From the NCBI GenBank assembly GCA_029783825.1, contig JAREIK010002672.1:124001-188000 (forward strand): a stretch of DNA of 64,000 nucleotides, read 5' to 3'. Below the pieces are notes generated by a model, which was given only the letters and a program-made list of their open reading frames with translations, had not been told where the DNA came from and did no database searches. The stretch's first letter is position 1; each line of letters starts with the position of its first letter. Shown piece by piece: positions 1-64,000 of this stretch. Origin of the DNA: Sapria himalayana. Taxonomy: Eukaryota > Streptophyta > Magnoliopsida > Malpighiales > Rafflesiaceae. A program made the translations under genes and the position numbers.

Positions 1-768
1 ATGTGTTTCTATACTTTAACACTTTCGCTCCTACTTTATAATCTTTTTTGTATTAACTTTTATGCCTCCTTTCTGCCCTTTATCCTTTAGACCTTATCTT
101 TCCTTGCTACCTTGGCATATTTGAAGATTTCCTATGCCTCCATTCGTTGAATACTCCTATTGTCACTATAATTTCCTGCAAAAAATACATACAATTTGTG
201 TAAAAAATAACTTTATCTATTTACTTACCTTTGATTGTTCCGGCTGAATATATTCTGGATAGCTGTATAGAACTTCTGCTGGATGTTCTTTCCATAGCTT
301 TTTAGCCCTCCCCTTCTCCTTCCTTTATCCTCAAACCTTTTGTATCTATTGCCTTTAATCCTTCCAAATTTGAATTGCACCTTACTTCGCTCCTAATTTA
401 ATCTATTCCAGATTCAATATTCTGGATTTTATTGACCTTTTAACCACATAAAATAACACATGACTCATCCTTTCCTTTAAACTCGGTTTCGGATCTCAAA
501 CAAAAAATTAAAAATGATGTTTTGCGAAACAAGATAAAGAGTGATCTTCCTCCAAACACATCCTCCTTTGCTGTCTTTCCTTAGCTTGAAGCCTGTTAAG
601 CTGCTAAGAAAACAAAAAAATGCAACAAATAATACTACAATTTCAATTCATTCTACATTCCCTTCTACCTCTTGCTGAATCACCTGATTATGTATATTTG
701 GCTTCTTCCCGCATAGCCATATCCTGCAAAGAAAACTACACACCGCACTACATCTTTAAACAATATTC
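1..768 (-). other. E1 3' UTR
   Basis: There is no open frame of note. The stretch lies downstream (minus strand) of the E1 RNase H stop, in the place where the other copies carry a roughly 1-kb 3' UTR. The 3' terminal box seen in six other copies is not reached, so the true 3' end of E1 is outside the window. Confidence 0.6.
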
Positions 769-2090
769 CTATCTATTTTTACTTATTCTTAGGTAAGGAA
801 ATGTAATTTTATCTAATCTTGCTAATCCTTTCAATTTTATCGGTAAAGATTCCTCATCATACTCCGTAGCCCCTTCTAACAATCCTATTTTATCAAGCTT
901 GTCTGCCAATGCATTTGCTTCCCTGTATACATGTAATATTGATGCATTTAATTCTTTAGCAAGACTCACTATTATTTCTATCTCCTCCTCATGCCGCCAC
1001 AGTACTAGTTTTTTATTAAATAACTCAACCAATAATGTTGAGTCTACCTGTATTTGCAAATTTCTATTCCCTAGCTTATTACAGAGATATAATCCTTCCT
1101 TTAGTGCCCTAATTTCTGAGTGCAGTGCAGAGTAGGATTTTCCTGCTAGTGTGAAAGCTTTCCTAATTCTACCTTCAGAGTCTCTTATTACTCCTCCACC
1201 TCCTGCAATTCCTAAATCTCTATTGAAACTACCATCAGTATTCAACGATAGTTTCCCTTTTGCGGACCTATTCCAGCTTATACTTTTAACCCAATGAATC
1301 CTTTTAATATTAGTGGAAAGATTCCATGTTTTCCTGGCTTCTTTATCCATTTCAGAATTATCTAATATGATAGGTTTTATACAGGATATATTACTAATTT
1401 CCAACTTAATGTCTTTTAGGATATCATCTACATTCATTTTTATGCCCTCGAATCTACTTTTAGTCCTTGCATTCCATATACACCATATTACTACGTGTGG
1501 TAAATTTTGGTTTAGCCATTTTTTGGTTGGTGTATTAGGGGGGTGCCTCCTCCACCTCTTAATCCTATCTATTAAAGTTTCCTCATTGATATTTATATTA
1601 TTAAATATTTCTAACTTTTTCCATATTTCAAATGCAATTTTACCTTCTGAAAATAGATGATCTGTAGATTCTGTTGCTTGATGGCAGCAATCGCATCTGG
1701 AAGCTATCTTTATACCCTTTTTTGAATATTTGTATCTACCGGTAATGCATTCACAAGAGCTTTCCATACAAGAGAGCACATTTTTTGTGGGCTGCCTACT
1801 TTCCATACCCATTTAATGATTGGGTTTATCATATTTTTCTTTCGAATCAAATTCTTGATCATTTTAAACGTGAAATTCCCTTGCGGAGTAAGGGTCCATT
1901 TCCATCCACTCTTCTCCTCTTTAGAATGAGATTCAACTATTTCTTTCTGTTTTTCTAGAGCTTTCCAGGAATTCGAAGCCTTTTTTCTATTCACCTTTTC
2001 GTGTTCTACATATTTTGCTCTCATAAAGCTCGCCCATAGGCTATCATTTTTTAGCCTCCACCAACCTTTACAGTCCCAAGCATCTGCCAT
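769..2090 (-). pseudogene. E1 ORF2 C-terminal part: zf-RVT and RNase H
   Basis: Two overlapping minus-strand frames (1710-2090 and 769-1812) make up the end of ORF2, split by a frameshift near 1720-1800. The first has the post-RT linker (WDCKGWWRLK, MRAKY). The second starts in the zinc-binding zf-RVT segment (ASRCDCC, then ESTDHLFS), passes the conserved WCIW-RxKSRFEG stretch and ends in an RNase H domain. RNase H acidic residues are visible in NTDGS, SEIRALKEGL and QVDS, and in the terminal ANALAD motif, so the domain looks catalytically complete. In plant LINEs this domain removes RNA from the RNA/DNA hybrid during reverse transcription. The frameshift makes the copy non-functional as a whole. 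Confidence 0.88.
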
Positions 2091-3230
2091 GTCCTGTAAA
2101 GATATTAATCCTAATCCGGCTTCCTCTTTTGGGTAGCAAATATCCTCCCATCTTTTCTAGTGAATTTTATTCTTTCCATCTTTTTTTCCCCCATAAAAAG
2201 TTAGCCATTGTTGATTCTAATTTATTTGTAAATTTTTTTGGAGGATGAATAATTGATAGAATATGCACTAATGTGCTTTGAAGGACATGAGTAATTAATG
2301 TGATCCTGCTCCCAAAGCCCAATAGCTATTCTTTCCAACCTGCTATTTTTGTATTCATTTTATCCTGTAGTGATATTAAATATTCTTCTTTCAGTCTACC
2401 TTCATATATAGGACATCCTAGATACATTAGCGCTCCTTTATTCTGGATAAATCATGTGATGTTCTTTACTTTATTACTCACCTTTTTTGTTACTTTCTTT
2501 GCCAGCATAAACAGACACTTTTTTTATATTTATTGCCTGCCCTGTCTTAGTTTCAAATGTATGTAAAAGATCTATAAGGTATATCAAAGATCTTTTACTC
2601 GCATTTGTAAAAATTATAAGATCATCGGCATATGCCAGGCAGCCTACTCTTGGAGTATTTTTTGGTTGTCTGAATGGAATGATCTTTCCTTCCGACATTC
2701 TTTTATTTAAATTTAGAATCAACAGTTCTAAATATATATCAAATAATAAAGGAGAAAATGGGTCTCCTTGCCGTAAGCTTCTTTTAGGCTTAAATTCTTC
2801 TCCTTTCGTCCCATTTACAATGACTTTAACCCATACACTAGACACACATCTATATATCATATCAATGCATAACTTTGAGAAGCCAAATTTTCTCATAGTA
2901 TAGCAGAGTATGTCCCATTCTACCATGTCAAATACTTTCGATAAGTCTAACTTTACTACTAAATTCTCCCCTCTTATTTTAACTCCTATGTCTTTCATAA
3001 TTACAGATGCTAATCTTATGTTTTCCGATATTAACCTATTTTTAACGAAGCCCGTTTGCTCTTGTGATATAATATATGACAAAATATCACTTAATCTATT
3101 TTGTAAAATTTTTGCTAAAATCTTGTATATCGCATTACATAAACTTATAGATCTGAAGTCCTCACATTTTTGTGGGGATTTGTTTTTTGATATCAAGACA
3201 ATGAAAGAATTCGCCCATGTTTTAGGAATA
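2091..3230 (-). pseudogene. E1 ORF2 reverse transcriptase fragment
   Basis: The clean stretch 2474-3196 (240 codons) carries the RT core: FRSISLCN, QTGFVKNR, the first catalytic Asp in KLDLSKVFD, LRQGDPFSPLLF, and the YADD box at 2621-2632. Downstream, 2091-2470 holds the thumb region in broken frames (TLITHVLQSTLVH, MANFLWGKK). The fingers and palm look intact, but the thumb has stops and the 5' end is missing, so no functional enzyme is encoded. Family assignment rests on the motif order, which is that of plant L1-type RVT_1 domains. Confidence 0.9.
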
Positions 3231-6200
3231 TCCTCTTCTTATTCTTCTTCTTATTCTTCTTATTCTTCTTATTCCTCTTCTTCTTCTTCTTCTATTTATT
3301 TTTCTTATTCTTCTTATCTTTCTTTTTCTTCCTATTCTAATTATTCTTCTTATTCTTTTTATTCTTGTTAATTTTTTTAATCTTCTTATTCTTCTTATTC
3401 CTCTTATTCTTCGTTTTTTGTTATTCTAGTTATTTTTCTTTTTCTTCTTATTTTTCTTTTTCTTCTTATTTTTCTTATTCTTCTTATTCTTCATATTCTT
3501 CTTATTCTTCGTATTCTCCTTTTTCATCTTATTTTAATTTTTAATATTATTCATCTTATTCTTCGTATTCTACTTATTCTGTTTATTTTTATTATGCTTC
3601 ATATTCTTCGTAATCTTGATTTATTCTTATTTATGTTTTTATTCTTTTTATTAATATTATTATTTTTATTCTTCTTATTTTTTTTATTCTTGTTATTCTT
3701 CAATTTCTTCTTATTCTTCTTATTCTATTTATTCTTCTTATTTTTAATTTTTTTCATATTCTTATTATTCTTTTTATTTTTTTTATTATTGTTATTTTTT
3801 TTAATTTTTTTATTCTTCTTATTCTTCTTATTCCTCTTATTCTTTTTTTTTTGTTATTCTAGTTATTATTATTATTTTTGTTATTTTTCTTATTATTCTT
3901 ATTCTTGTAATTATTCTTATCTTTCTTATTCTTCTTTTTCTTCTTATCCTTCTAATCCTTCTTATTTTTCTTAATATTTTTATTTTTTTTATTCTTATTA
4001 TTCTTCTTAATCTTCTTATTATTCTTATTCCTCATTCTTTATTATTATAGTTATTCTTCTTTTTCTTATAATTTATCTTATTCTTTTTATTATAATAATT
4101 CTTCTTATTCTTATTTTTATTTTATCCTTCTTTTTCTTCTTAATATTTTTATTCTTCTTATTCTTCATACTTCATATTCTCATTATTCATTTTATTCTAA
4201 TTATTCTTTTTATTCAACTTATTCTTCGTTTTCTACTTATTCTATTTATTTTTATTATGATTTTTATTCTTTTTAAATCTAGTTTTATTCTTATTTATTT
4301 TTTATTTTTCTTATTCTTCTTATTTTATTTATTTTTCTTTTTCTTCTTATTATTTTTATTTCTTATTCTTTTGATTCTATTTATTTTTATTTCTTTTTTT
4401 CTTAATCTTTTTATTCTTTTTATTCTTCCTATTCATTTTATTCTTCATTCTCTTCGTATTCTTTTTATTCTTCTTACTTATTTTTCTTATTCTTCTTATT
4501 TTTCTTATTCTTATTATTTTTCTTATTCTTCTTATTCTTTTTATTCTTCTTGTTCTTCTTGTTCTTCTTTTTCTTCTTGTTCTTCTTGTTCTTCTTGTTC
4601 TTCTTGTTCTTCTTTTCTTCTTATTCTTCTTATTCTTCCTATTCTTCCTATTCTTCTTATTCTTCTTATTCTTTTTATTCTTCTTATTCTTCCTATTCAT
4701 TTTATTCTTGTTATTCTTCTTAATCTTCATGTTCTTCTTATTCTTCATTTTTCATATTCTAGTTATTCTTCATATTCTTTTTATTCTTCTTATTCTTTTT
4801 ATCCTTCTTATTATTTTTATTCTTCAAATTGTTTTTATTTTTATTATTCTTCTTTTTCTTCTTATTCTTCTTTTTCTTTTTATTCTAATTATTCATCTTA
4901 TTCTTATTTTTCTTCTTTTTCTTCTTATTCATATTTTTTTTCTTTTTCTTCTAATTCTTCTTTTTCTTCTAATAATTCTTTTTCTTCTTTTTCTTCTTTT
5001 TTCTTCTTTTTCTTCTTTTTCTTCTTTTTCTTCTTTTTCTTTTTTTTTTCTTCTTTTTCTTCTTTTTCTTCCTTTTCTTCTTTTTCTTCTTTTTCTTCTT
5101 TTTCTTCTTTTTCTTCTTTTTCTTCTTTTTCTTTTTTTTCTTCTTTTTCTTCTTTTTCTTCTTTTTCTTCTTTTTCTTCTTTTTCTTCTTTTTCTTCTTT
5201 TTCTTCTTTTTCTTCTTTTTCTTCTTTTTCTTCTTTTTCTTCTTTTTCTTCTTTTTCTTCTTTTTCTTCTTTTTCTTCTTTTTCTTCTTTTTCTTCTTTT
5301 TCTTCTTTTTCTTCTTTTTCTTCTTTTTCTTCTTTTTCTTCCTTTTCTTCTTTTTCTTAATATTCTTCTTTTTCTTCTTTTTCTCCTTATTCTCATTATT
5401 CTTCTTATTCATCTTTTTCTTCTTTTTTTTCTTATTCTTCTTATTTTTATTATTATTTATATTCTTCTTATTCTAATTATTTTTATTATTCTTTTTATTC
5501 TTTTTATTCTTCTTAATCTTCTTATTATTCTTTTTCCTTATTTTTTTTATTCTTTTTATTCTTTTTATTCTTCTTCTTTATCTTATTCTTTTTATTCTTC
5601 TTATTCTTCTATTTCTATTTATTCTTCTTATTCTTTTTATTTTTCATATTGTTTGTATTCTTATTATTCTTCTTATTATTCATAATATTCTTATTCTTAT
5701 TATTCTTCATATTCTACATATTATTCTTATTCTTCTAATTCTACTTATTGATTTTATTATTCTTTTTCTTCTTAATCTTCGTATTCTTCCTATTCTTATT
5801 TTCTCTCTTATTATTCTTATTTTTCTCATTCTTCATATTCTTCTAATTATATTGGTTTTTCTTATTCTTCTTATTCTTCTTATTCTTCTTATTCTTTTTA
5901 TTCTTCTAATTTTTATTATTCTTATTATTCTAATTATTCTTTTTATTCTTCTTATTCTTATTAATCTTTTGAAAATTCTTATTCTTTCTTTTCTTCTTAT
6001 TCTTCTTATTCTTCTTATTCTTTTTATATAGTTATTCATATTATTCTTCTAATTCTTTATATTATTTTTATTTTTATTATTCTTCTTATTCTACATATTC
6101 TTCTTATTATTGTTATTTTTCTCATTCATCTTATTTTACTTATTATTTATATTCTTCTTATTCCTTTTAAACTTCTTATTCATATTATTCATATTATTCT

Positions 6201-6260
6201 TATTATTTTTATTATTTTTATTATTTTTATTATTCTTTTTTTACTTCTTATTCTTTTTTT
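3231..6260. repeat. Array A1, 9-bp pyrimidine-rich minisatellite
   Basis: About 3.0 kb of tandem 9-mers, plus-strand consensus TTATTCTTC, with many substitutions but little loss of 9-bp register. It lies between the truncated 5' end of E1 and the 3' terminal box of E2. Local variant blocks include TTGTTCTTC around 4545-4610 and a homogeneous TTTTTCTTC block at 4976-5358. Because the unit is a multiple of three and only one frame holds a stop, five of six frames stay open for long distances. These low-complexity ORFs are not genes. Confidence 0.93.
4976..5358. repeat. Homogeneous TTTTTCTTC block, 383 bp of pure pyrimidine
   Basis: A sub-block of array A1 with no purine on the plus strand over 383 bp, built from about 42 units of TTTTTCTTC with few variants. 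Its uniformity contrasts with the diverged units on both sides, which points to recent local amplification. Long polypurine/polypyrimidine tracts of this kind can form intramolecular triplexes (H-DNA); that is inferred here. Confidence 0.92.
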
Positions 6261-6325
6261 TTAATGTTTACTTTATAATTATAATAACCCTCTCTTTTGG
6301 CAGAGGAATACCATTTTTACAAACT
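6261..6325 (-). terminator. E2 conserved LINE 3' terminal box
   Basis: The minus strand reads GGTATTCCTCTGCC, then AAAGAGAGGG, then an AT-rich stretch and nine A residues before the GAATAAGAA array begins. It is homologous to boxes at the 3' ends of E3, E4, E5, E6 and E8. This copy lacks a clean AATAAA (ATTATAAAG instead). It marks the RNA 3' end used for priming. Confidence 0.8.
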
Positions 6326-7544
6326 ACAGACAACCTTTTACCCTCACACACCCCTTACTTGAAATTAAAATACAAAAAAATAATAATAAAGTAATTCTAG
6401 CATTTTCTTCATTATCAGCTCTTTAAGTTTGCCTTCTGAGCATCATTTTGTTTTTGTATATGAACTTTATGTTGGGTTGTATTCTGGTTATGCAGTCCTA
6501 CTTTTGATCATCTTTAAGCCCAGTTATTACTTTTCTACTCCAATTGTCTATTTGTTGTTGTCATCCTAGTTCCGTGTTGGTCATCTTCCTACTTTTCTTC
6601 CCCTTTATTTTTGCTGAGATGCTTTATTCCTTGGCTTATCTTGTCCCTCCTCAGATCTAACTCCCCTTCCTGACCCATAATAGCCCCATTTACAAACACT
6701 ACCCTTACCAACCTTACAGACAACATCAAATCAATACCTATTCTACCATAACAGACACTCACCTACAAAAAATAAATACAGTCTCTTGCAAATTACTTAA
6801 TCATCATAAATTCTAACTATTTTTCCATTATAGTAAACACAGTCAGCTTCACAGACTTGGCTAAATTCAGCCATAATAGACACCCAAACCAACAGCCCTC
6901 CATCTCCACTTTCACCACTTTATCCTCTATCTTAGTTGACCTATACCTTGACTTATTTAGCCTGATTTTCAGCAATTGCATCTGGTCCTACATTAGCCCA
7001 TTATATGTATGACAAGAACCTCCCTGAGCTTTTGTTTCTGCTTCATTGTACTCCTCCTCTGAAAAACCCTGCAAAATAAACAAGCCATACCCCTACTCAA
7101 TCGATACTGCTATATTCCTTATCCCTTTAGACCCCTTACAGACACATCATAGTTCCTCTCTCAATCAGAAACATGGTCATCGTACACACAAACACTCAAA
7201 ACCCATAATTTTCCCTCAAGTCTACTGTGTTCCATTCCTTAGTCTACTACCTTCTCTTCCCTTCTACCTTACAAACTAGTTAACAAACCAAGACTTGTTG
7301 TCGCCCCTCAGGACCAGGGTGACTCTTGGATCACCAAAACATTTTCCTTCCTTTTCAGTTATAAACACTGCTCTAGATTTATTTTCCTAAAAGTATGCTC
7401 TACTTCATGCCTTCATCTTGTGAACTGGTAGCTTAAATGGACTTGTACCTATAAGAAGAACTTAGAAATCCAAATAATATGTGACAGTCTATGTTTCTAG
7501 TCTTTTCTTACTATTTTACTACGAGTTGCCTTACTACTATAATT
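6326..7544 (-). other. E2 3' UTR
   Basis: No supported coding frame. A run of CAGACA- and ACAAAC-rich sequence lies between the RNase H remnant and the terminal box. The part near 7300-7325 (CTCAGGACCAGGGTGACT) resembles a segment of the E7 3' UTR near 40920. Confidence 0.65.
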
Positions 7545-8520
7545 TTATTTTCTTGATTTAAGGATACTCCTTATTGTCCAAATTACAATACTTGTGTATT
7601 TGTCTGGAATATTCTTTTCCTTATATTCTTTGTTTTCTCTTGTTCTTTCTTTTTTAGCTAGCTCATCTACTAGAGAATTAGCCTCTCTGAATATGTGTTT
7701 TATAGTGAAATCTAATGTGTTGTTTACTTGTAATATTTCTTCCTTTTCTTCCTCGTATTTCGATCTTACTATATTTTTATTAACTAAGTTTACCACTATG
7801 TCCAAGTCTATTTGGATGTCTAAGTAATTAATTTCTAATTTTTTTGCAAAAACTCACTCCTTCTTTTAGTGCTAAAATATATGCTTGTAATGCTGATGAT
7901 GCTTGAAAATTCCTTGTGAAATCTAAAATTAGATTTCGTTCAGAATTTCTTATAGCACCATCGCCTCCTACTGCTCCAATATCTTTATCTAAGCTACCGT
8001 CTGTGTTTAGCACAAACCTATCTTTCATAGGTTTTTCCCAGTTTATACTAATCAACTTAAACTGTTTTAGCTGATTCACTTTTAGTTTCCAAAAATTCAA
8101 GGTATCTTTTACTAAGTCAATTTTTGTATTTTAAAGGGTGTGTTTTATATATTTTCTTAGTTTCATATTTTATGTCCCTCTAGATATATTCAATTGAGAT
8201 GCTCTACCCCTTGAACCTACTTTTATTTCTAGCTTTCCAGATGCACTAGGTAGCTATTAGGGGTACATTATTTTTAATCCATTTCTGGAAATACTTGGCG
8301 TGTGAGCTTTGATCCATTTTTGAAGCCTCATTTTTAGCGAGAGATTTTCTTGTTTTAAGTGCAATTCTGATTCTAATCTTTTCTATATTTCAGATGCCAC
8401 ACTACCTAATGATAGGATATGGTCTAGGGTTTTACTCTCATTTAAACAGCAATCGCACCTGGAGGCCAACTGTTAACCCTTTTTCTTTATATTAGTATCT
8501 ATAGGTAGAATATTTAAAAG
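7545..8520 (-). pseudogene. E2 RNase H and zf-RVT remnant
   Basis: Two frames (7828-8100 and 7545-7805) cover an RNase H domain, with a decayed zf-RVT stretch upstream to about 8520. The first Asp is kept (VLNTDGS). The expected catalytic Glu in the AEILALREG motif is Tyr here (QAYILALKEG), so even a repaired frame would be inactive. The REANSLVDELAKK segment is the usual C-terminal histidine/Asp-loop region. The domain ends with a normal-looking LINE C terminus. Assignment is by clear similarity to the RNase H of E3 and E8. Confidence 0.82.
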
Positions 8521-9216
8521 AACCATGATGTAAACACCATGTATTGTGAAATTTGAAGGCTTTATTAGTATGTGTTATATTTTTTATTGTAATTAGAAGT
8601 GGGGAGTGGTTTGAGCAGGTTCTATTTAGGTGTTTCACCTAAGTCTAACCAAATCTCTCTAACCATTTAATATTATAAAGGACTCTATCTAATCTTACCC
8701 ATATTATGTCATTTTTAAATCGGTTATTACACTATGTAAATTGAGATCGTAAAAAATCAGCCTCTATCAAATTCATTTTAATTTATGATTTTGTTAAAGT
8801 GAAAGGTTGCCCATGAGTTAGGAGGTCTACCTCCTTTCTTTTCTTTGGAAAATCTTATCGCATTAAAGTATCCCCCTATAATCCAATGGACATCTTTAAT
8901 CGCTATATTATTAGAATATACTATTGTAATTATTTTTTTTACCTCTTGACTTAGGCTATAGTTTATTAGTTGTTCTATTTATTTTAATATGTGAATATCT
9001 AAATTACTCCTCCACATTACCCATAACTTCCCATTATTATTAGCAAATGTATGTTCAAATCATAAGGTCATTTTATATGTTTCTAAATGATTTCTATCCA
9101 CCATTGGTTCCATTAATATTATATGTGAAGTGTTATACATGTATATCATTTTTTTAATCTATTTCTCGAGGGAGATTTGCTACTCCTCTTATATTCAAGA
9201 TTATAAACTTATACAT
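8521..9216 (-). pseudogene. E2 ORF2 N-terminal endonuclease remnant
   Basis: Translation from the overlapping ATG at 9216 gives the ILNIRGVANLP start shared with other copies. It is followed by a broken apurinic/apyrimidinic-type endonuclease: EPMVD, WIIGGYFN, KKGGRPP and HLNRTCSNHSPLL. Two catalytic positions are changed compared with E7 and E8, GGDFN to GGYFN and SDH to SNH. Several stops are present. The sequence then joins zf-RVT directly with no RT. Confidence 0.75.
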
Positions 9217-9705
9217 TGCTAGTGGATTTTTATTGTGTTCTAATTGTGCATTTAGAATCATATGGTTTGTTTAATTTTTTTTTGTATTTCTTTAGTTTTT
9301 TATAGAGCTTGAGTTTACAATTTTCTCACATTTCCATCACCTTCCTAATTGTACTTCCATTATCTTGATTTCTTCTATTGCCCACTCTCAAATTCCCTTT
9401 CCATGTTTATATTTATATATATTAATATCATCATTAAAGGACCTCTTATTCTATCCTTTTTCATCCTCATTTCTATTTAGGATTATGGAGCTTTTCACCT
9501 CCATTTCTTCTTTTGAAATGTCTTCTATAGATACTGCCCATCTATTAAATATTTCCTCCTTGTTTATCATTTGAGCTTTAGTTTTTTTAGTAAGCTTTTC
9601 TATTTTCTTCATCATTTCATTACTTTTATTTTCCTCTGCAATTTCTATTTCCCTGACTTCCTCTTCATTACTAGTTTTTTCATTTTTGGGTATCTTGTCT
9701 CCTAT
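9209..9705 (-). pseudogene. E2 ORF1 C-terminal tail
   Basis: A short, decayed stretch equivalent to the linker between the ORF1 zinc knuckle and the ORF2 start in E7 and E8. It ends at the conserved overlap (ATGTATAA, 9209-9216), where the ORF1 stop overlaps the ORF2 ATG. The DUF4283 and CCHC parts are lost because the element is truncated at about 9705. Confidence 0.6.
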
Positions 9706-10698
9706 CTCATTATTCTAATTTTTTTCTTATTCTTCATATTCTTCTTATTCTTCTTATTCTTTTTATTCTTATTATTCATATTATTCATATTATTCTTATT
9801 ATTCTTATTATTCATATTATTCTTATTATTCTTTTTATTCTAATTATTCTTCTTATTCCTTTTATTTTTATTAATCTTCTTATTTTTTATATTCTTCTTA
9901 TACTATATGTTCTTTTTATTCTTCTTATTCTTCTTATTCATCTTATTCTTCTTATTCTTCTTATTCGAGTTATTCTTCTTATTTTTATTATTTTATTTAT
10001 TCTTGTTCCATTTTTATTATTCTTATTATTCTTATTATAGTATTATTCATATTCTTATAATTCTTGTTAATCTTCTTATTCTTCTTAATCATTTTATTCT
10101 TCTTTTTTATTTATTTTTATTATTCTTCTTATATTTCTTATTTTTCTTATTTTTCTTATTCTTATTATTCTTATTATTCTTTTATTGTTCTTATAATCTT
10201 ACTCTTCTTATTCTTATTCTTCATTTTATACTTTTTCTTCATATTCTTTTATTTCATTTTATTCTTTTTTTTATTCATCATATTCTTTATGTTCTTATTC
10301 ATCTTATTTTATTTATTTTTCTTATATTTGTTTTTATTCTTATTCTACTTATTATATTTTATCTTTTTGTTCATCTTATTCATCTTATTCATCTTATGAT
10401 CCATATTTTCTTATTCTTTTTATTTTTCTCATTCTTTTTATTCTTTTTATTCTTATAATTCTGCTTATTCTTTTTATCCTTCTTATTTTTCTTATTCTTT
10501 CTATTCTACTTATTATTATTTTCTACTTATTCTTCTTACTTTTATTATTCTAATTATTCTAATTAGAATACTTATTCTTCGTATTCTAGTTTTTCTTTTT
10601 CTTTTTCTTATGATTTTATTCTTCTTATTCTTATTTTATTCTTATTTATCTTCTTATTCTTTTTATTATTTTTATTCTTCTTATTTTTCTTTTCTTTT
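9706..10698. repeat. Array A2, 9-bp minisatellite
   Basis: About 1.0 kb of TTATTCTTC-type units between the truncated 5' end of E2 and the 3' box of E3. Units are quite diverged. It contains no homogeneous block and no gene. Confidence 0.92.
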
Positions 10699-10762
10699 TA
10701 TAAAGTTTGTTTTATTAAAATTAACCCTCTCTTTTGGCGGAGGAATACCTTTTTTACAACCT
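10699..10762 (-). terminator. E3 conserved LINE 3' terminal box
   Basis: Minus strand: GGTATTCCTCCGCC, AAAAGAGAGGG, TTTAATAAAACAAAC, then CTTTATAAAAAG and the array. The AATAAA hexamer lies about 20 nt before the array, the usual distance to a poly(A) site. Confidence 0.85.
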
Positions 10763-23638: not shown

Positions 23639-23689
23639 TTTCAGCTCAAACCCATGACTTTCTTCCCCAAATTAAAGCTCACTTTCTAA

Positions 23690-40065: not shown

Positions 40066-40074
40066 ATTACTTGT

Positions 40075-43465: not shown

Positions 43466-43477
43466 GTATGAACCGCT

Positions 43478-46323: not shown

Positions 46324-46339
46324 TTTAGCTTGAAATCGG

Positions 46340-53516: not shown

Positions 53517-53558
<42 letters not shown>

Positions 53559-54390
53559 TTCTTCTTCTTCTTATTCATCTAATTCTACTTATTCTTCTTA
53601 TTATAATTATTATTCTAATTCGTATTATTATTATTATTCATAGTATTATTGTTATTTTTATTCTTTTTATTATTCATATTCTTCTTATTCTTATTAATCT
53701 TTTTATTATTCTTATTCTTTTTATTCTTTTGTGACTTATAATTATTCGTATTCTTCTTATTTTTCATATTATTTTATTTTTTTTATTTTTATTCTTATTC
53801 TTTTTCTTATTATTCTCTTTAATCTTTTTATTCTTTTTATTCTTCTTATTCTTCTTATTCTTCTTATTTTTCTTATTCTTCTTATTCATATTATACTTAT
53901 TATTCTTATTATTCTTCAAATTCTTCTTATTCTTATTATTTTACTTATTATTATTGTTCTTCTTGTTTTTGTTCTTATTATTCTTTCTTCTTATTCTTAT
54001 TTTTATTTACATTTTTCTTATTCTTCTTATTTTTCTAAGTCTTCTAATTCTTCTAATTTTACTCATTCTTCTAATTCTTAATTTTCTTATTATTCTTATG
54101 ATTCTTCTTATTTTACTTATTATTCATATATTTATTTTTTTAATATTTTTAGTATTCTTATTATTCTTCTTATTTTTCTTATTCATATTATTATTCTTCT
54201 TATTCTTCTTATTCATATTATTATTCTTATTCTTTTTATTCATCTTATTCTTCTAATTATTATTATTCTTCTTAATCTTCATTTTCTTCTTATTTTTCTT
54301 TTTCTTCTTATTCTTCTTATTCTACTTATTCTTCTTATTCTTCTAATTCTTAATATTCTTTTTATTTTTCTTATGCTTATTATTCTTTTT
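46426..54390. repeat. Array A7, 9-bp minisatellite, about 8 kb
   Basis: The longest array in the window, without any interruption by recognisable LINE or gene sequence. Units are diverged forms of TTATTCTTC; (ATT)n stretches occur at about 53518-53562. Repeated larger segments are visible, for example CTTCTTCTTATTCATCTTAATCTTATAATTCTT-like stretches at about 48545-48590 and 50195-50230 and again in part near 53560. This shows longer higher-order copying within the array. No gene. Confidence 0.93.
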
Positions 54391-54452
54391 TTTAAAGGTT
54401 GTTTTATTAAAATTAACCCTCTCTTTTGGCGAAGGAATACCTTTTTTACAAC
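54391..54452 (-). terminator. E8 conserved LINE 3' terminal box
   Basis: Minus strand: GGTATTCCTTCGCC, AAAAGAGAGGG, TTTTAATAAAACAACC, TTTAAAAAAAAG and the array. AATAAA is present. Confidence 0.85.
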
Positions 54453-55424
54453 CTACTTACTTGCTACCCAAAGCCCCTTACACCCTCTAACTGCCTATAT
54501 ATAATAAACATGTATTGCAATTTAGAAATTCACATTATTTTGTGAATTTATTTATATGTAAGCTGTATTTCTGATGAAGCTACGTTTTCATGTATATCTC
54601 TTTATGTTGTTCCTGTTAGCCTTTTTGTATCTTTCGGTAATCATTTATGTTCACCTCCCGCCTATTTAAGTATCGCGAATTTTATTTTCTGCCCTCTTGA
54701 TGAGTATTTGTGACTTCTTATGAAGCTTTATGCCTTATGATGAATGCCCTCCCTTCAATGATCTTGGAAAGACATCTTCCTCCACAATCTTTCTACATCG
54801 TCTTTTCTTTAACTTTCCCCCAATGCTCTTTCCTTTAATATGTGTTTCTATTGCTCCACTTTGCTCTGATCTTTGTACCTTGTTCCAGCTTTGATGTCCA
54901 CAATAGACATGACCATCTAATACTAGACACTTTGTTACATAATTACTGAAGAATATATAACACAGACTGCCACATTTAGAGACATCATTAACTATAACAC
55001 AGACTGCCTATTAACACAGACTCCAGACCCTGCAAATATAAAATCCACAGACACCATTTCTGCTTGCTTGAACCTTGTTTATCCTGCCTGCAAAAAAACT
55101 TATAAAAAAACTGCATTCATATATATTCTATTACTGTTCAGTGCCCTTTCTTCTTGCTCTTTTAATGCTGAGCTGATCACATTCTAATCATAATAGTATA
55201 CCTGTTATAACTGTTAGAGGAAAGGGGAGAAAAACAGAAAAAACAGAACCGAGGCGAAACCAGAAAAACAGAAAAACAGAGGGAACCAGAAAAAAAACCA
55301 AAAAAATAAAAAATACCAGAAACTACCTTGCTGAGAATTCATACCTTGTATATTCTGATCTGTTTTTTAAAACACCCCACAGGACCGAGGTGAAACAGAT
55401 TGTGCCATGAACATGCATATGATC
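54453..55424 (-). other. E8 3' UTR
   Basis: Non-coding and closely similar to the E3 3' UTR. At 55226-55322 there is an ACAGAAAA-type tract into which a short AACCGAGGCGAAAC segment has been copied; a near-identical GACCGAGGTGAAACAG lies 130 bp away at 55382-55398. Confidence 0.72.
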
Positions 55425-56350
55425 TTATTCTTTAATTCTCCTTATATATGGAAATTCCTCACTATCTAACTTTATTATTCCTCTATATGTTTGGGGTATA
55501 TTATCTTCATTAGAGTTTTGATGTCCTTTGTTTTTACCTTCTTTTGAAAGTTTATCTGCTAACACATTAGTTTCCTTGTAAATATGTCTAACAGTAACGT
55601 CCAATTTATTTATATCTTTCATTATATCTTCTATTTCATCCTCATATTTCCACATTATTGTTTTTTTATTAATTAGATTCACGACAATTGTTGAATCTAA
55701 TTGAACATCCATCTTTTTTATACCTTTCTCTATACATATTCTTAATCCTTCTCTTAGCGCAAGAATCTCTGCCTGCAAAGCCGAAGATGCTTGAAATTTT
55801 ATTGTGAAAGCTAATATTAGTCTTCCTTCCGAGTTTCTTATTGCCCCGCCCCCTCCTGCTATTCCCATATTTCTATTAAAGCTACCATCCGTATTTAAAA
55901 CCTGTCTTTCTTTAGAAGGTTTTTCCCATGTTATTTTTATTATTTTAAACCGTTTTTGATGAAGAGTTTTTAAATTCCAAATTTTATAGTGTCATTATCT
56001 AAACTTTTATCTATTATAATTATCGAAGCTAATTCAAAAATTCTACTGGTTTCCTCTTTAATATTTTTCCATATGTTTTCAATTGACATATCTTGCCCCT
56101 CAAATCTACTTTTGTTTCTGGCTTTCCAGATGCACCAGATAGCTATTAACGGAATATTATATTTAATCCATTTCTGTGCTGAATTTATAACCTTCAGTTT
56201 AACCATTTTTTAATCTGCATTCTAGAAAAAGATTTTCATATTTTATTAGGAATTAAGATCCTAGTCTATGCCAAATTTCTGCTGCTACCTTGCCATTTGA
56301 GAAGAGATGATCTAGAGTTTCCATTTCTTCTCCACAACAATCACATCTAG
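55425..56350 (-). pseudogene. E8 RNase H and second half of zf-RVT
   Basis: The frame 55425-55868 is an almost complete RNase H: GIAGGGGAIRNSEG, AEILALREGL (Glu), VQLDSTIVV (Asp), HIYKETNVLADKL, ending FPYIRRIKE. The start NTDGSFNRNM lies just upstream, near 55870-55900, and reads NTDGS in the same frame; the preceding stretch WEKPSKERQVL is also readable. The frame 55970-56206 has WCIWKARNKSRFEG. A frame change near 55965 separates them. All catalytic positions look normal. Confidence 0.88.
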
Positions 56351-56351
56351 A
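56344..56351. repeat. Left 8-bp target-site duplication of the MITE
   Basis: CATCTAGA at 56344-56351 is repeated at 56795-56802 on the other side of the MITE. The uninterrupted E3 sequence (near 12726) has it once. Eight-base duplications are typical of hAT transposons. Confidence 0.9.
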
Positions 56352-56794
56352 TAGAGGTGTCAACCATGCCGGGCCGGCCCGGCCCGGCACGAGGCACAGC
56401 ACGGTTCAGCCATGCCTGGGCCGGCCCGGCACGGAAAAAATCCGTGCCCGGGCCCGTGCCGTGCCCGGCATGAGCCGTGCCGTGCCGTGCCTGGCCAGGC
56501 ACGGTTCGGCCCCTGGCACGGCAAACCGGCACGGCAAACCGCATGCCTCCCCTCCCGCAAAAAAAGACCACGGGTCGGGTCAAATTCGACCCGACCCGCG
56601 GTCCCCGTTTCCCGAACCGCTCGGACAGGTTTGCCCGAGCGGGCCAGGCGAGGCACGGCACGGCCCATCGTGCCTGCGGGCCGTGTCTGGCCCGGTTTTT
56701 TTAAATCGTGCCGTGCCCGGCACGGCACGGTAGCACGGGCGTGCTCGTGAAAAACGGGCCGTGCCGTGCCGGGCCGGCCCGTTTGACACCTCTA
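56352..56794. mobile_element. Non-autonomous hAT-type MITE, GC-rich, 443 bp
   Basis: Terminal inverted repeats begin TAGAGGTGTCAA and end TTGACACCTCTA, followed inward by inverted GGGCCGGCCCG sequences. It has no coding capacity; overlapping chance frames of Gly/Ala/Pro/Arg-rich peptide come from GC-rich sequence. The TIR start is like the T(A)GGGGTG-type ends of plant hAT elements, and the 8-bp duplication agrees. Its GC content is far above that of the surrounding LINE. It splits the zf-RVT domain of E8, so it inserted after E8. Confidence 0.9.
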
Positions 56795-58130
56795 CATCTA
56801 GATGCTAATCGAATTCCTTTCTTTTTTAAATTATTGTCTATTGGTATACTATTCAACAAGACTTTCCACATAAATGTTTTAATTTTTTGTGGATTGTCAT
56901 TATTCCATATCCATTTAAACAATATTTTTTCATCTTGTTTTTTTCTAATCACATTTTTGACCGACTTAAGTGAAAATGTTCCTTCTGAGCTTAAATTTCA
57001 TCTCCATCCTTTTTTAGTTTGCTTTGAATGTTTTTCAACTAAGTCTCTTTGCTTAAGCATTTGTGTCCAGACTTGTGTATTCCTCCTTGTCTCTTTTACC
57101 TTATTAATATCATTATTTATACAATATTTTGCCCGCATAAATTCTGACCACAAGCTGTCATTCTCCTTCAGCTTCCACCATCTTTTACTTGCCCATGCTT
57201 TGGCTAAATCATTTAAATTGATAAAGCCTAATCCTGCTTCCTGAACCGGGGAACATAAGTCCCTCCATTTTTTCCAATGTAATTTATGTTTACCTTCTTT
57301 TTTTCCCCACAAAAAGTTAGCCAATTCCTTTTAAATCCTTTTAATAAACTTATCCGGTGGTTGAACTATCATAATATTATGCATTAAAGAACTTTCTAAA
57401 ACATGCTTTATTAAAGTTATTCTCCCCCCCATATTTAGATATTCTTCCTTCCAGCCAGATATTTTCTTTTTTAATTTGTTTATCAAAAATTCAAAGTATT
57501 CAGTTTTTAGTCTACCGTCGTATATTGGACAGCCCAAGTAAATAATTTCTCCTTTTTTATGCGAGAAACCTGTTATATTTTTAATTTTATGAATTAACAC
57601 AATGGAAGATTTGAAAGAAAGCATATATTGACATTTATTTTTATTTAATTTCTGTCCTGTTTCTTTTTCCATGCATTTTAATAAATCCATCAAATTATTT
57701 AGAGATCTACTACCTCCATTGGTGAATATTATTACATCATCCGCATATGCTAAACAACACACCATAGGAGTGTTGTTAGGATGTCTAAAAGTACCTATTT
57801 TACCCTTGAGCATTTTATCTTTAATATTTACTAATAATAATTCCAAATAAATGTTAAATAATGAGGAAGAGAGTGGATCTCCTTGTATAAGACCTCTAAC
57901 CGGTTTCATTTCTTCTCCTAGTTTACCATTAATAATGACTCTCACCCATGTGTTAGATAAACATCTGTATATTAAATCTATCCAGGTTTCAGAGAAACCC
58001 ATCTTGCGCATGGTAAAACAAAGGATATCTCATTCCACCCTGTCAAATGCCTTTGATAAATCTAATTTTATAATTACATTACTTCCTCTTGTTTTAGTGC
58101 CTATTTCTTTACTCAATTATTTTGCCAAAC
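56795..58130 (-). pseudogene. E8 reverse transcriptase, thumb and first half of zf-RVT
   Basis: The frame 57331-58011 (226 codons) is a continuous palm: IQGDPLSSSLFNIYLE and LAYADDVIIFTN (YADD at 57736-57747), ending at the thumb (TLIKHVLESSLMHN). Further thumb sequence lies at 56998-57324 (MANFLWGKKEGKHKLHWKKW). The zf-RVT first half (NDNPQKIKTFMWKVLLN, ASRC) follows in 56803-56952 and is cut by the MITE. The first catalytic Asp (KLDLSKAFDRVE) is at about 58025-58075, upstream of a stop at about 58028. There are only single lesions between blocks. Confidence 0.88.
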
Positions 58131-59784
58131 ATACATTTTCCATTATCGATCTATTTTGCATAAAGCCTGTTTGCTCTTTTGAGATAATTTTAGTAAGACA
58201 ATTAGCTAATCTACTTTGCAAAAATTTGGCTAGTATTTTATATATTGAGTTACAAAGACTAATTGGTCTAAAATCCTCCCCTTTTTGTGGGTTTTCCATT
58301 TTTGGAATGAGAACTATATGAAAGCTTCCCCATTTTTTCCCTATCTCAGCCCCGCAAAAGATACTGATCACAACTTTTATTAAATCTTCTTTTATTATAT
58401 GCCAGCATTTTTGATAAAAATAGTTATTCCATCCATCCGGGCCAGCTGCACTATCCTTATTCATGCTAAACACTGCTATTTTAATTTCTTCTTCTTCAGG
58501 AAATTTTATTAACATATTATTATCCTCTGAGTTAATTTTCTTATCTAAGTTTTGTATAAGTGTGTTTCCTATAAGGTTACTTTTACCACATAATTGATTT
58601 TCAAATAGCTTAGTAAAATAATGTTGTATCTCTATTTCTTTATCCACCCATACAGTTTCAACATTTTTTATACCCATAATTCTATGTTTCTGATTTTTAA
58701 CTTTAGCTATTCTCTGAAAAAATTTAGTATTTTTATCTCCTTCTTTAAGGCATTTTAATTTTGCTTTTTGTTTCCAAAAAACTTCTTCCATTAACAATTT
58801 TAGTTTTAATTCAGCTTGTGCCTTATTTAATTCACTTCTTTCATTTGCACTTTGATTATTTTCATACTCTAGTTCCTTTTCTAAAACTAAGTCCTCTGCC
58901 TGTTTTATGTTTTTATTTATATTTCCAATTTCTTCTTTATTCCATTTTTTTAACTCTTCTTTTAATCATTTTAGTTTATTATTTATAACTTGAACAGGAT
59001 TTCCAAAAAATCCTTTTTTCCATGATTCCTTTACAATATTTAAAAAATTATGATGCAATCACCAAACATTTTGAAATCTAAAGGAACCATTTGAGGAAAC
59101 AATATTTTTAATTGTGATCAATAGATGACTATGATCAGAACATGTCCTATTGAGATGTTTAACTTTAATCGAACCAAATTGTTCTAACCATTTAAAGTTA
59201 TATGGCACTCAGTCTAGTCTAGCCCATATAATACCCTTGTTTTTCCGATTATTACACCAAGTAAATTGAGAGCCTAAAAAGTTAGCCTCCATTAAATTAG
59301 CTTTATTTATAATTTCATTAAACTGAGAGACAGCACTCTTGTTTGGAGGTCTACCTCCCTTTTTTTCTTTAAAGCTTCTAATTATATTAAAATCTCCACC
59401 AATAATCCATGGTTTATTCTCTATTGCTATTCTCTCCATTTCTTCCCATAATTCTTTCCTCTCTTCTCTTTTATTTTTAGCATAGATTACTGTGATTATT
59501 TCATTCTCCTCTTGGTTTAGACAAAAATTTATATATTGCTCACTTTGCTTTAAGATTTTTATGTTTAATGAATATTTCCATAAAACCCAAATTTTACCAT
59601 TTTTATTGACAAAACCATTTTAAAATCCTAAGATTTTAATATATTCTTCTAGTTGATCTTCACCAATCATTGGTTCCGCTAACATAATGAGATTTATTTT
59701 ATGTGTGAGTATCAATTTTTTTATTCTATTTCTTGAGGGAAGATTTGCAACTCCCCTGATATTCCAGTAGATACAATTAAACAT
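58117..59784 (-). pseudogene. E8 ORF2 N-terminal part: endonuclease, linker and RT fingers
   Basis: ORF2 begins at the ATG at 59784 (MFNCIYWNIRGVANLPSRNR), overlapping the ORF1 stop. The endonuclease shows IIGGDFNIIR, KKGGRPPNKS, FTWCNN, WARLD and CSDHSHLL, with isolated stops at about 59620, 59205, 59065 and 58970. The frame 58117-58797 (226 codons) is open and holds the linker (KEGDKNTKFFQRIAK, KDSAAGPDGWNNYFYQ) and RT fingers (DFRPISLCNSIYKILAKFLQSR, EQTGFMQNR). Some of the stops could come from single C-to-T or G-to-A changes at CGA or TGG codons. Confidence 0.88.
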
Positions 59785-61060
59785 TGTTTGCCGATTTAGC
59801 TTGTGCCCTAGTTACACATTTTGTGTCGTATGTTTTGTTTAGATATTTTTTCATGTTTCTAGGTTTTTTTAATGAACTTAAATCTCTACCTTTCTCTCCT
59901 TTCCAATCCCTACTCAATTGAATTGACATTATTTTAATTTCTTCAATTGCTCATTCTTTGTTTCCCATATTTTGCCTAAATTTTTCAATGTTTATATCAT
60001 CCTTAGTGAATTTTAAATTCTGCTCATTCTCATCTTCATTCATATATAGAGAAGTTGAGCTTCTTACCTCCATTTCTTCCTCCGAGAAATCTTCTATACC
60101 TGTTGCCCAAGCCTTGTTTTTTGTTTGTTTTTAATTTGCATTCTTGTTCTCCTATTCAAAGCTGCCATTTTTTTAAACAATTCTGATCTATTAACTTCCA
60201 TTATATTCTGCTCTTCCTTGTTTTCCTTGTATTCAATCAGCTTATTTTCATTTTGTTCATTATTCTGTGTTATGGGGAGCACACTATTCTATACTTCTAG
60301 CATAGGTTTTTTTGTGATATCTTACTACCTCTTTTCCTTTCCCAGCCTCCTCCCTTCTTTTCTCAACCTTCTGATAATCTGCCCTTCTCTTATTCATAAT
60401 GCATCTCTCAATATCATGTCCCATTTTCCTACAGCATTTACAGTATGCTGGAAGGTTCTCTGGGACTACCTGCTGCCAGAAACCTTCTCCATCAGGGAGA
60501 CCTATCCATATTCGGCTAGGTAATGGTTTCTGGAGATCAATTGCTACAAAAATACGGGCAACACTGGGTCTTGAAAGTGTGGCAGTAGTGCCATCAAGAA
60601 GAAAAGGAGAGCCCAGTGTGCAAGCAATATGATATAGAGCAAATTTATCAATAAAATGAATCGGTAACATAGGTGGCAGAAGCCATACCAGAGCCATAAA
60701 GGATTCTTCCTTAGTAGAGAAGTTAGGCGACCACTTGAACATCCTCATGGGATGATAATCTTCCTCACATAATAGTTGAAGTAAGAAGTGTTTATCGTCG
60801 ATGAGACCAATTTTTATCATCGCTTTCAAGTTAAGAGAGTTGAAAAATGCGCCCACTTCATCAATTCGTGGTCGACCGTGTGAGAATTTGCCCACCAAGG
60901 TATATTTGTGAGGTTCCATGAGCTTTTGAAGGTCTTCTGCCGAGAACAGAATCAAGGGATTCTCATGATTTTTTTCGTCAAAACCCGAAAGAGATGACAC
61001 TGTAGGCGCGGTCTTCTTAGTAATATAGGAGAAGGATTTCTTATTTTCTAAGTAATCCAT
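59777..61060 (-). pseudogene. E8 ORF1: DUF4283 and CCHC knuckle
   Basis: The frame 60284-61060 (258 codons) starts MDYLENKKSFSYITKK and carries DUF4283 (KYTLVGKFSHGRPRIDEV, LLPPMLPIHFIDKFALYHIA, LDGTTATLSRPSVARI, WIGLPDGEGFWQQ). A CX2CX4HX4C knuckle follows, CKCCRKMGHDIERC. Compared with E7, about 13 residues are missing in frame between EEDYH and PMRMFKW. After a stop near 60284 the charged C-terminal tail continues (60094-60282 and onward) and ends ARAQAKSANNV with its stop overlapping the ORF2 ATG. Its role would be RNA binding. Confidence 0.88.
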
Positions 61061-61109
61061 TCCCTTGAAAATCAGCTTAAGAAAACTTTCTTCTTCCTCA
61101 TAATTTGTA

Positions 61110-61157
61110 CTTTCTCTCTCTAGAAAGGTTTGTTTCTCTCTCTAGAAGTTGAGAGCG
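61110..61157 (-). promoter_or_regulatory. E8 LINE 5' terminal box, tandem copy
   Basis: The minus strand reads CGCTCTCAACT, then TTCTAGAGAGAGAAA twice with a spacer of a few bases. This duplicated box is the 5' end of E8; array A8 starts immediately beyond, after a short A/G-rich stretch. Partial duplication of the box is also visible in E7. Confidence 0.72.
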
Positions 61158-62301
61158 TTTTTTGAAAAAAAGAAGAAACTATTTGTTTCTATGCTTATTA
61201 TTCTTCTTATTTTTTTTATTCATCTAACTCTTCTTATTTTTTTAATTATTCTTTTTATGCTTATTCTTCTTATTCATCTTATTATTCTTATTATACTTTT
61301 CCTTTTTACTATTATTCTACTAATATTTCTTATTTATCATATTTTTCTTATTTTTGTTATTTTTTCTTATTCTTTTTATTCATCTTATTCTTTTTATTCT
61401 TTTAATTCTTCTTATTTTCAAACTCTTCTTATTCTTCTTATTCTTCTTATTCTTCCTATTCTTATAAGTCTTCTAATTCTTATTATTCTACGTATTCTTA
61501 TAATTTTTATTATTCTTATTCTTTTTATTATTCTTCCTATTATTCTTTTTATTATTATTTTTATTCTTCTTCTTAATCTTCTTAATCCTCTTAATCTTCT
61601 TAATCTTCTTAATCCTCTTAATCTTCTTAATCTTCTTATTCTTCTTATTTTTTTTCTTCTCGGTCTTTTTATTCTTCTTATTTTTTTTTTTCATCTTATT
61701 TGTTTATATATTATAATTATTCTTATTCTTATTCTTATTTCATATTCTTCTTATTCATTTTATTTTTCTTATTCTTTTATGTTTTTTAATTATGGTTATT
61801 CTTCTTATTCTTATAAGTTTTCTAATTCTTCTTATTTTTCTTATTCTTTTTATTTTTTTTATTCTTATTATTTTTTTTTCTTGTTATTCTTCTAAGTCTT
61901 CTAATCCTAGTTATTATTATTATTTTTTTTATTATTATTCTTCTTATTCTTATTATTCTATATAATCTTTTAAGATGTATTATTGTTATTATTCTTCTTA
62001 TTTTTCTAATTTTTCTAACTCTTCTAATTCTTCTTATTCTACTTATTTTTCTAAGTCTTCAAAATATTCTTATTCTAATTATTCTTTTAATTCTTTTAAT
62101 TCTTTTAATTCTTTTTATTCATATTATTCTTCATATTCTTTTTATTCTTCTTATTCTTTGTATTATTGTTATTCTTCTTATTTTTCTTATTCTTGTTATT
62201 CTTCTTATTCATCTTATCATTCTTATTCATCTTATTCATCTTATTATTCTTATTCATCTTATTCTTCTTATTTTTCTTATTCTTATTCTTCTAATTTTTT
62301 T
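61158..62301. repeat. Array A8, 9-bp minisatellite
   Basis: About 1.1 kb between the 5' end of E8 and the 3' end of E9. It contains a short block of TTAATCTTC and TTAATCCTC units (about 61567-61640). Confidence 0.92.
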
Positions 62302-63282
62302 TTCAAAAAAAAAATAAAGCATCTAGACGGAGCATATCCTGTGATAATATCAAAAAATAAATATTCCATTGATGAGCTGGAGTTTAGATTAATCTACATG
62401 CAAACCCTCTGGAAGTTCCCCTGGCCATTCTTATGCAAATCTTTAAGATTTTTGCTCTCCTCCCACCTTCCTCATCTTGAACTATCCTGCCTTGGCAAAT
62501 TGATGACCCAAACTGAGCAGACACCAACCCTGCAAGTTGACCGATGTAGACCCATAGACTCATGGGGACATTACTTGGCTGACATTTATACAAACACCTT
62601 GCCGACTCCACACAGGACCTCCTTACCGACTTTATACAGAAGACCATCATACAGACAAAGATTCACATACATAAATCATGATTTTCAACACATTATAGAC
62701 AAACACGACTAGACCCTTAACAAATAATAATAAGCGACAAAATGCTTCTTAATTCCAACCATAATCTAAGCCCGACACAATACCTAAACCCTGAAAAACT
62801 ACAGAAAAATAGAAGCTGCAACTCTATACATTACTTTACCTGATGAGAAAATTATAACAATCCAAGATAAACTATAATAACCAATACCCGCCTTCTAATT
62901 CCTACAAAATAGGCGAGGCTTATATCTAGCATATACTTACCTGAACAATCTCCTGGGGTGTGACCTGCCAAATAATAATCTTATCCAAACACATATATTA
63001 ATATTTTATATAAGCCTATATTTCTAAGACTTCACAAGGGAGTAAAACCTCCTGGAGGATAAACCTACAGGACAAACTATCCATGCACGTATAGGGAAAG
63101 ATTATGCTGACAAAAAGAAGACAATCCAAAGCAAGAGGCTGTAAGGAAACAATAGACTTATTCCCAATCCAGTCTAGTAGCCGACTAAAAAAAGAAATAA
63201 GAGATATCAAGACAATTTTCCATATGTCCATTATAAAAATCATATTCTTTTCCAATCCTAATATACGGGAATCCGAGTTCAT
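62302..63282 (-). other. E9 3' UTR, distinct type
   Basis: Non-coding and not clearly alike to the 3' UTRs of E2-E8. It ends (minus strand) with TCTAGATGCTTTATTTTTTT, then TTTGAAAAAAAAA and the array. No AATAAA is present at the end. Confidence 0.65.
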
Positions 63283-64000
63283 CGAGTTTTGCTAGACCTT
63301 TAAATTTATCTGGGAAATCACTTGTTCCAAAGTTCACATCCCCTATAGATTCCCCTTCTTTGGCCAACCTATCCGCTAGAGAATTAGCCTCTCTTTAAAT
63401 ATGTTTAATGCTCGCATTCCTTTCTTCCATGAATTTTTTAATGAAATCTATGTCTTCTTCATATTGCCAGAGCTTAAAATCTTTGTAAACAAGATCGACT
63501 AACAACTTAGAATCTACCTGAATTTGGAAATCTATAAGATTAAGCTTGCTACAAATTTGTAAACCTTTATGGAGAGCTTTAATCTCAGAATATAATGCTG
63601 AGTTGACTTTAAACTTCATCGAAAATGCTTTAACTACCCTTCCAAGCGAATCCCTTATTATGCCTCCACCCCCTGCAACCCCCATATCTCTGTTAAAACT
63701 TCCGTCTGTATTAAGAGTCAGTTTACCTTTAGAAGGTTTCTCCCACTTATTGCATTTTATTCTCCGTTCTCTTTCTTTTTCGTGTGACAAGCCCCATTGA
63801 TTTATCAATTCCATTGCTGGCTTATCCATCCTGGTTTTTATAGGGCTCACCTCTGAAATGCAAATAAGCTCTCTTTTAATATCTTTTATAATATAAAGTG
63901 AATTCATTCTAAAATTATCAAATCTGCTCTTATTTATAGCCTTCCAGATACACCAAATAACTACCAACCGGATGTTATTCCTAAGCCAGATCTGAACTTT
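63283..64000 (-). pseudogene. E9 RNase H
   Basis: The frame 63395-63967 (190 codons) has WCIWKAINKSRFDN, then RNase H: LTLNTDGSFNRDMGVAGGGGIIRDS, YSEIKALHKGL (Glu) and QIQVDSKLLVDL (Asp). One stop codon at about 63395 separates it from the continuation at 63185-63367 (LADRLAKEG, LDELGFPYIRIG), which is in frame. Apart from this stop the domain is open and all catalytic residues are present. It is thus one of the best preserved RNase H domains in the window. It extends beyond 64000. Confidence 0.88.

Follow-up and report, generated by a model that had tools for sequence, protein, structure and literature searches.

A T-rich 9-bp minisatellite of Sapria himalayana as the probable landing site of L1-type LINEs inserted in one direction

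Satellite-associated LINEs and the Sapria locus

We focus here on a 64,000-nt stretch of the Sapria himalayana genome (contig JAREIK010002672.1, positions 124,001 to 188,000; hereafter the window, in whose numbering all positions are given), in which eight blocks of a 9-bp repeat, TTATTCTTC on the plus strand, alternate with nine L1-type long interspersed nuclear elements (LINEs) and one retrocopy. The closest described system is L1-CS of Cuscuta europaea, in which 91% of 97,860 scored copies lie at most 10 kb from the CUS-TR24 satellite, a single orientation is frequent, the sites are TTCTA and TTTCAA with ends shifted by 13–16 bp, and recurrent insertion from several masters is favoured by the authors (PMC8091179; this and the other papers cited are drawn on for the parts available to us). 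In the centromeres of Populus, 84% of Celine copies lie in CENH3 domains, with a mean duplication of 15 bp and a preference for AAGA/AATA-like nick sites, a motif that the authors hold to be insufficient to explain the location (PMC11288735). A review also describes microsatellites that serve plant and human elements as landing pads (PMC12477314). A monocot L1 lineage carries a Stringent-type 3′ end, a hairpin with compensatory changes and a CGAG flank (PMC3747384, the Ohshima review), and chimeric retrogenes produced by LINE template switching have been reported from Magnaporthe and mammals (PMC2104539).

Our locus resembles L1-CS, as far as the available part of that account goes, in that plant L1-clade LINEs, present as heterogeneous copies of one lineage, lie in satellite arrays at L1-like T-rich sites; it differs in that CUS-TR24 has a long monomer with two preferred sites and interspersed (TAA)n, whereas here we find a 9-bp pyrimidine minisatellite (PMC8091179). 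Furthermore, TTTCAA is rare in our arrays, and nothing in the window matches a 27-nt piece of the CUS-TR24 probe at up to 3 mismatches; the likeness to L1-CS is one of description. With Celine the locus shares the character of a niche-bound plant LINE, and the purine strand of our repeat, GAAGAATAA, is rich in AAGA/AATA-like words; in the part of the Celine paper available to us, on the other hand, no tandem-repeat target is named (PMC11288735). Our literature search, which included five rotations or complements of the 9-mer as whole words, returned no paper naming the 9-mer as a LINE target, no 9-bp pyrimidine minisatellite in that role and no LINE-U2AF65 hybrid. The novel points of the locus are its short pyrimidine target, the chimera of LINE and U2AF65, and the presence of diverged elements with one common tail. 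The wider statement of the first-pass annotation of this window, that no plant L1-clade family of such a kind had been described, does not hold in view of L1-CS at CUS-TR24 (PMC8091179).

Probable insertion into a pre-existing array

We consider it likely that the T-rich minisatellite was a pre-existing landing site, into which L1-clade machinery inserted nine LINEs and a LINE-U2AF65 hybrid one way, nicking and priming almost only from the T-rich strand. The endonuclease would nick the pyrimidine strand at TT/A- or TT/C-like sites, the freed T-rich 3′ end would pair with the short A-tail of the RNA, and cDNA would be made onto the plus strand, thus placing gene sense on the minus strand. Array sequence would then be joined to the 5′ ends, whether these are complete or truncated.

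All ten elements, which we call E1 to E9 for the LINEs in their order along the window and X for the hybrid, lie on the minus strand. When 20 peptides of the window's own elements were searched for in all six frames, each segment between blocks gave matches, all of them on minus, and all eight blocks are T-rich on the plus strand, so that the common orientation given in the first-pass annotation is borne out. A two-sided sign test on 10 of 10 elements (E6 and E7 counted separately) gives p 0.002, and within the window there is no array block with its T-rich strand on minus.

Array adjoins 16 of the 18 element ends that lie inside the window: eight 3′ ends (E2, E3, E4, E5, X, E6, E8 and E9) and eight 5′ ends (E1 to E5, X, E7 and E8); the two exceptions are E6 at its 5′ side and E7 at its 3′ side. 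These are the same ends at which array had earlier been described as joined directly to the elements; the directness itself has to be qualified, as a short A-run (roughly 5–9 A, a T-run on plus) separates the 3′ untranslated region (UTR) from array at all eight visible 3′ junctions, and about 17–32 nt of unassigned sequence precede the array copy of a candidate duplication on the 5′ side of E3.

Element X (32214–34180, minus strand) bears on the order of events. It had been called a retrocopy, and it does contain a copy of the splicing gene U2AF65 with a stop and an A-run, but it is not a plain one, because a LINE 5′ UTR and open reading frame 1 (ORF1; together about 33766–34180) are fused to it. 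In sense, a LINE-like 5′ UTR and ORF1 are followed by a stretch rich in arginine and serine (RS), RRM1, UHM, a stop, a short 3′ UTR and a few A. The ORF1 stretch matches the ORF1 of E7 (37%, 5e-17) and of E8 (35%, 3e-14), the switch to the U2AF65 side lies at about 33.75–33.77 kb, and pieces of X match solved U2AF65 structures in UHM (1.1e-14) and RRM1 (1.2e-7); the RS-rich stretch we take to belong to U2AF65 by position and likeness. None of seven short pieces of X scored above the Pfam cut-offs, and we thus identify X from the sequences of U2AF65 proteins with solved structures and by comparing LINEs with one another. Array flanks X on either side; since a host mRNA should carry no array tail, this speaks for arrays that were there beforehand and against arrays as LINE tails. 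X also lacks the 3′ tail common to most of the LINEs (see below), which suggests that the LINE machinery also takes a plain mRNA end. In the simplest account, a T-rich nick would have primed reverse transcription of U2AF65 mRNA, and the enzyme would then have switched templates within ORF1 of a LINE RNA and copied the latter as far as its 5′ end. As in the Magnaporthe chimeras, different transcripts would have been fused and inserted by LINE machinery; X differs from them, so far as the available part of that paper describes them, in joining a LINE 5′ part to a host mRNA copy at the 3′ side, within a satellite array (PMC2104539). The 5′ end of X (ACAAATCTTTATAAAAAAC in sense, 34140–34190) resembles a LINE 3′ end (ACAAACTTTATAAAAAA), by chance or as the trace of a tandem LINE RNA.

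Candidate target-site duplications are found in three of the six elements with both ends visible, and all three consist of array sequence: an exact 17-bp word at E3 (TTCTTCTTATTTTTCTT, 10675–10691 and 13855–13871), an exact 13-bp word at E4 (TCTTCTTAATTTT, 17154–17166 and 23735–23747) and an exact 16-bp word at E8 (TATGCTTATTATTCTT, 54372–54387 and 61190–61205). For exact matches in tight zones, the chance values are 0.0007, 0.037 and 0.043 for E8, E4 and E3, three cases picked by eye. The E8 word is the strongest, occurring three times in the window, with two of the occurrences at the two E8 ends. Taken with the flanks of X and the array at eight 5′ ends, these candidate duplications support the proposal of the first-pass annotation that target-primed reverse transcription proceeded from the T-rich strand into an existing array.

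The arrays were delimited with Tandem Repeats Finder and repeat-unit matching. The eight blocks, all recorded on the plus strand and 1–8 kb long, lie at 3226–6273, 9704–10705, 13836–17179, 23741–25752, 30530–32218, 34180–37842, 46423–54397 (the longest) and 61189–62300. Trimmed, they sum to 23,563 bp, with 65% T and 1.6% G on the plus strand, and, with up to 2 mismatches allowed, an 18-mer of two units is matched 1062 times where 0.82 are expected. At about 5081–5341, in the first block, the variant TTTTTCTTC forms a mostly unbroken run, which suggests a recent local expansion within an old array.

Strand asymmetry and competing explanations

Eight L1-type nick-like motifs were counted in the arrays, and all are 5 to 220 times denser on the plus than on the minus strand, with ratios of 5-fold for TTTCAA, 13-fold for TTTTAA, 86-fold for TTTTA (21.6 vs 0.25 per kb) and 220-fold for TYTTA (66.0 vs 0.30 per kb). 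With such a bias towards the T-rich strand, nicking behind a T-run, followed by priming from T, would put gene sense on the purine strand whichever motif the enzyme uses. The one-way orientation thus needs no special device; L1-type chemistry on an asymmetric repeat suffices. Whether such an enzyme would also favour array over LINE DNA depends on the motif assumed. With both strands counted, TTYTWA is 5.8-fold, TYTTA 4.6-fold and TTTTA 1.9-fold denser in array than in LINE DNA, and no LINE split by another LINE was seen in the window though about 40 kb of LINE DNA has accumulated. For ten insertions, the probability of no nesting is 0.006 without preference, 0.049 at a 2-fold preference and 0.23 at the 4.6-fold preference given by TYTTA density. 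Avoidance of LINE DNA therefore follows only with an enzyme that accepts loose T-rich sites, or with something more selective.

Several points weigh against insertion into a pre-existing array in the form that we favour. The stricter L1 motifs do not predict a preference for array, as the array-to-LINE ratio is 0.7 for TTTTAA and 0.2 for TTTCAA. The nesting test takes the array to have had its present length and uses approximate sizes for E6 and E7, and the probability of at most one nested insertion without preference is 0.049. When duplications are sought in wide zones with mismatches allowed (150 draws each), none of the six elements falls below 0.05, the values being 0.100 for E8, 0.113 for E4, 0.273 for E3, 0.873 for X, 0.953 for E5 and 0.973 for E2. 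Finally, the endonuclease specificity behind the nick sites is one that we infer, and the LINE copies considered are those of this window.

The arrays might, as the first-pass annotation itself considered, be expanded A-rich 3′ repeat tails of the LINEs. Repeat tails are known in other LINEs, among them the I element and UnaL2 (PMC3747384, in the part available to us), and (GAAGAATAA)n does follow the short A-run, in the sense strand, at each of the eight visible 3′ ends. Units within 240 bp of 3′ ends are also slightly nearer the consensus than the array at large (mean mismatch 0.144 vs 0.160), but at 5′ ends the units of the first 240 bp come equally near it (0.146), these being means compared without a significance test. 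Tails should moreover place array on the 3′ side only, whereas it adjoins eight 5′ ends; X has an mRNA-like 3′ end and yet has array on both sides, blocks reach 1–8 kb, and the candidate duplications are themselves made of array sequence. We thus regard an origin of the arrays from tails as very improbable. Amplification in tandem of one LINE-plus-array unit would yield a common orientation without repeated insertion and would fit the same order of parts in each unit; it is, however, as good as ruled out by the identity of only about 63–70% in most alignable pairs (E3 and E8, at 80–90%, excepted), and the truncation point, internal deletion and content vary between copies.

A passive origin is also to be considered, in which LINEs would insert without regard to site and survive where genes are few, in satellite heterochromatin. 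Satellites are as a rule heterochromatic, and the longest open frame of any LINE here has 347 aa; no copy thus looks active, and such decay is what one expects of old insertions that were tolerated. Survival of this kind does not, however, yield ten of ten elements in one orientation, and it predicts nested insertions, for which the probabilities given above (0.006 for none, 0.049 for at most one) speak against it. It would also admit long terminal repeat (LTR) elements, and self-comparison of the nine segments shows no LTR-like direct repeat pair, solo LTRs being possible. We hold it to be improbable. Rather unlikely, in our judgement, is a dedicated target-specific lineage, with an endonuclease or ribonucleoprotein specialised for the TTATTCTTC minisatellite and most of its genome copies in it, much as telomere- or rDNA-specific animal elements are specialised for their sites. 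The single clade in the RNase H tree, the tail common to six of seven LINE 3′ ends despite deep divergence and the lack of an LTR-like repeat pair in the nine segments would fit such a lineage, and there is a precedent in L1-CS of Cuscuta (PMC8091179, as far as its available part goes); array has no higher density of the stricter L1 motifs, TTTTAA for example, than LINE DNA has, so that generic chemistry may fall short as an explanation. Looser T-run motifs, on the other hand, explain orientation and non-nesting without it, X suggests that a plain mRNA end is also accepted, and the outside set of the tree, having come from an E1 query, cannot show the host's other LINEs. Of the target-selective system proposed in the first-pass annotation, insertion into the array is supported; selectivity beyond an L1-type liking for T-runs is a conjecture, and that liking explains orientation under every motif tested and non-nesting under some. 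A general liking for T-runs accounts for the orientation, to which a dedicated targeting device may or may not add.

The elements, their lineage and their niche

All nine LINEs are on the minus strand. E4 (17167–23734) and E8 (54388–61189) run from 5′ UTR through ORF1, endonuclease, RT and RNase H to the 3′ tail, E8 with its frame broken in places and a foldback insert, and E7 (41024–46423) extends from 5′ UTR through RNase H and adjoins the region of E6 without array. E1 (1–3235) comprises RT to RNase H, is 5′-truncated onto array and has its 3′ end beyond the window; E3 (10693–13837) is 5′-truncated within RT, and E5 (25733–30530), with a conserved 3′ tail, in or near the endonuclease. E2 (6256–9704) has the conserved 3′ tail, an internally deleted RT and a 5′ end in ORF1 joined to array, E6 (37827–40062) is a 3′ part with the RNase H region and 3′ tail, and E9 (62288–64000) has RNase H and a 3′ UTR without the shared tail, its 5′ part lying beyond the window. 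A 5′ UTR with a common CTAGAGAGAGAAA-like motif is reached by E4, E7, E8 and X. E3 and E8 are 90% identical over 1.1 kb and 80% over the next 2.1 kb; other alignable long stretches between copies are only about 63–70% identical.

Several features of single copies were also noted. In E2, at about 8500–8550, some 2.2 kb including RT are missing, with a short AAATATT-like match on both sides of the break; a spliced LINE copy was considered for E2, but in view of this match, and as inspection by eye showed no AG acceptor, the break has the look of a simple deletion. The 442-bp foldback insert of E8 (56352–56793), of 70% GC, lies in LINE sequence, not in array. Its terminal inverted repeats are of the AGAGGTGTCAA type, a short duplication (roughly TCTAGATG) accompanies it, and E3 has no insert at the corresponding site; it resembles a hAT-type miniature inverted-repeat transposable element (MITE). 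A perfect hairpin, GGGCTATGGGT...ACCCATAGCCC, was seen by eye in the 3′ region of E7 (40800–40840), as were inverted TTACCTTAACATAATA-like repeats, perhaps a small MITE, between E6 and E7 (40070–40225). A search of Rfam gave no match at gathering thresholds.

Judged by their predicted proteins, with a DUF4283 ORF1, an L1-like RT, zf-RVT and RNase H, the elements are L1-type plant LINEs. The RT of E1 matches RVT_1 (1.3e-33), and among solved structures it is nearest to human L1 ORF2p (8.9e-26; best R2, 7.2e-18). DUF4283 is found in the ORF1 of E7 and E8 and RVT_3 (RNase H) in E1 and E8; we take a DUF4283 ORF1 and a C-terminal RNase H in ORF2 to be marks of plant L1 elements. The endonuclease of E8 matches Exo_endo_phos at 20.3 bits, below the 24.5 cut-off, and the E7 piece has no Pfam match; the pieces of E7 and E8 do match one another. 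In a tree built from RNase H pieces, eight window copies (E6 left out, E2 partial) form one clade, with support of 100/99, against 50 outside database proteins; as these were gathered with E1 as query and the host's other LINEs are not evident among them, the single clade is only suggestive. Database searches returned one protein for ORF1 (Coffea arabica, 50%), 52 for RNase H, of which the best by E-value is from Dendrobium thyrsiflorum (31%), and six for the RT palm, the best unnamed (37%) and Coffea arabica and Nicotiana tabacum lower. All named relatives of the LINE proteins are from flowering plants, and there is no near relative among them.

The last 72 nt common to E2, E3, E4, E5, E6 and E8 have a mean identity of 0.81; in the same six elements the adjoining upstream 3′ UTR reaches 0.45 and RNase H 0.60. 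This conserved final stretch of about 70 nt is present in six of seven LINE 3′ ends, E9 being the exception, and was not recognised in E7. It looks like a 3′ end kept for recognition, by analogy with one monocot L1 lineage. A hairpin in the tail was considered and set aside as weak, since only 4 pairs are predicted and none has both sides changed. The likeness to Stringent-type ends thus lies in a short conserved 3′ end among strongly diverged L1 copies; the CGAG flank, as the available part of the review gives it, was not seen by eye in our tails, and the 4 pairs lack compensation (PMC3747384).

We put forward, tentatively and as a possibility on which we would not rely, that an old plant L1 lineage has a pyrimidine minisatellite niche, in which families at about 65% DNA identity may keep both the tail and the 9-bp target, land one way and deliver RNAs such as U2AF65 mRNA, making the repeat a one-way LINE archive. 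The locus would represent a second satellite-niche type for plant L1 LINEs, with a target of such strand asymmetry that orientation would directly show the strand nicked first. The hybrid X is a natural experiment, which separates an array that served as target from one that grew as a tail and points to the machinery likely to lie behind the retrocopy. If insertion is directed by nothing more than the asymmetry of the T-rich strand, LINEs in a single orientation are to be expected in every pyrimidine minisatellite of the genome; otherwise, only in TTATTCTTC.

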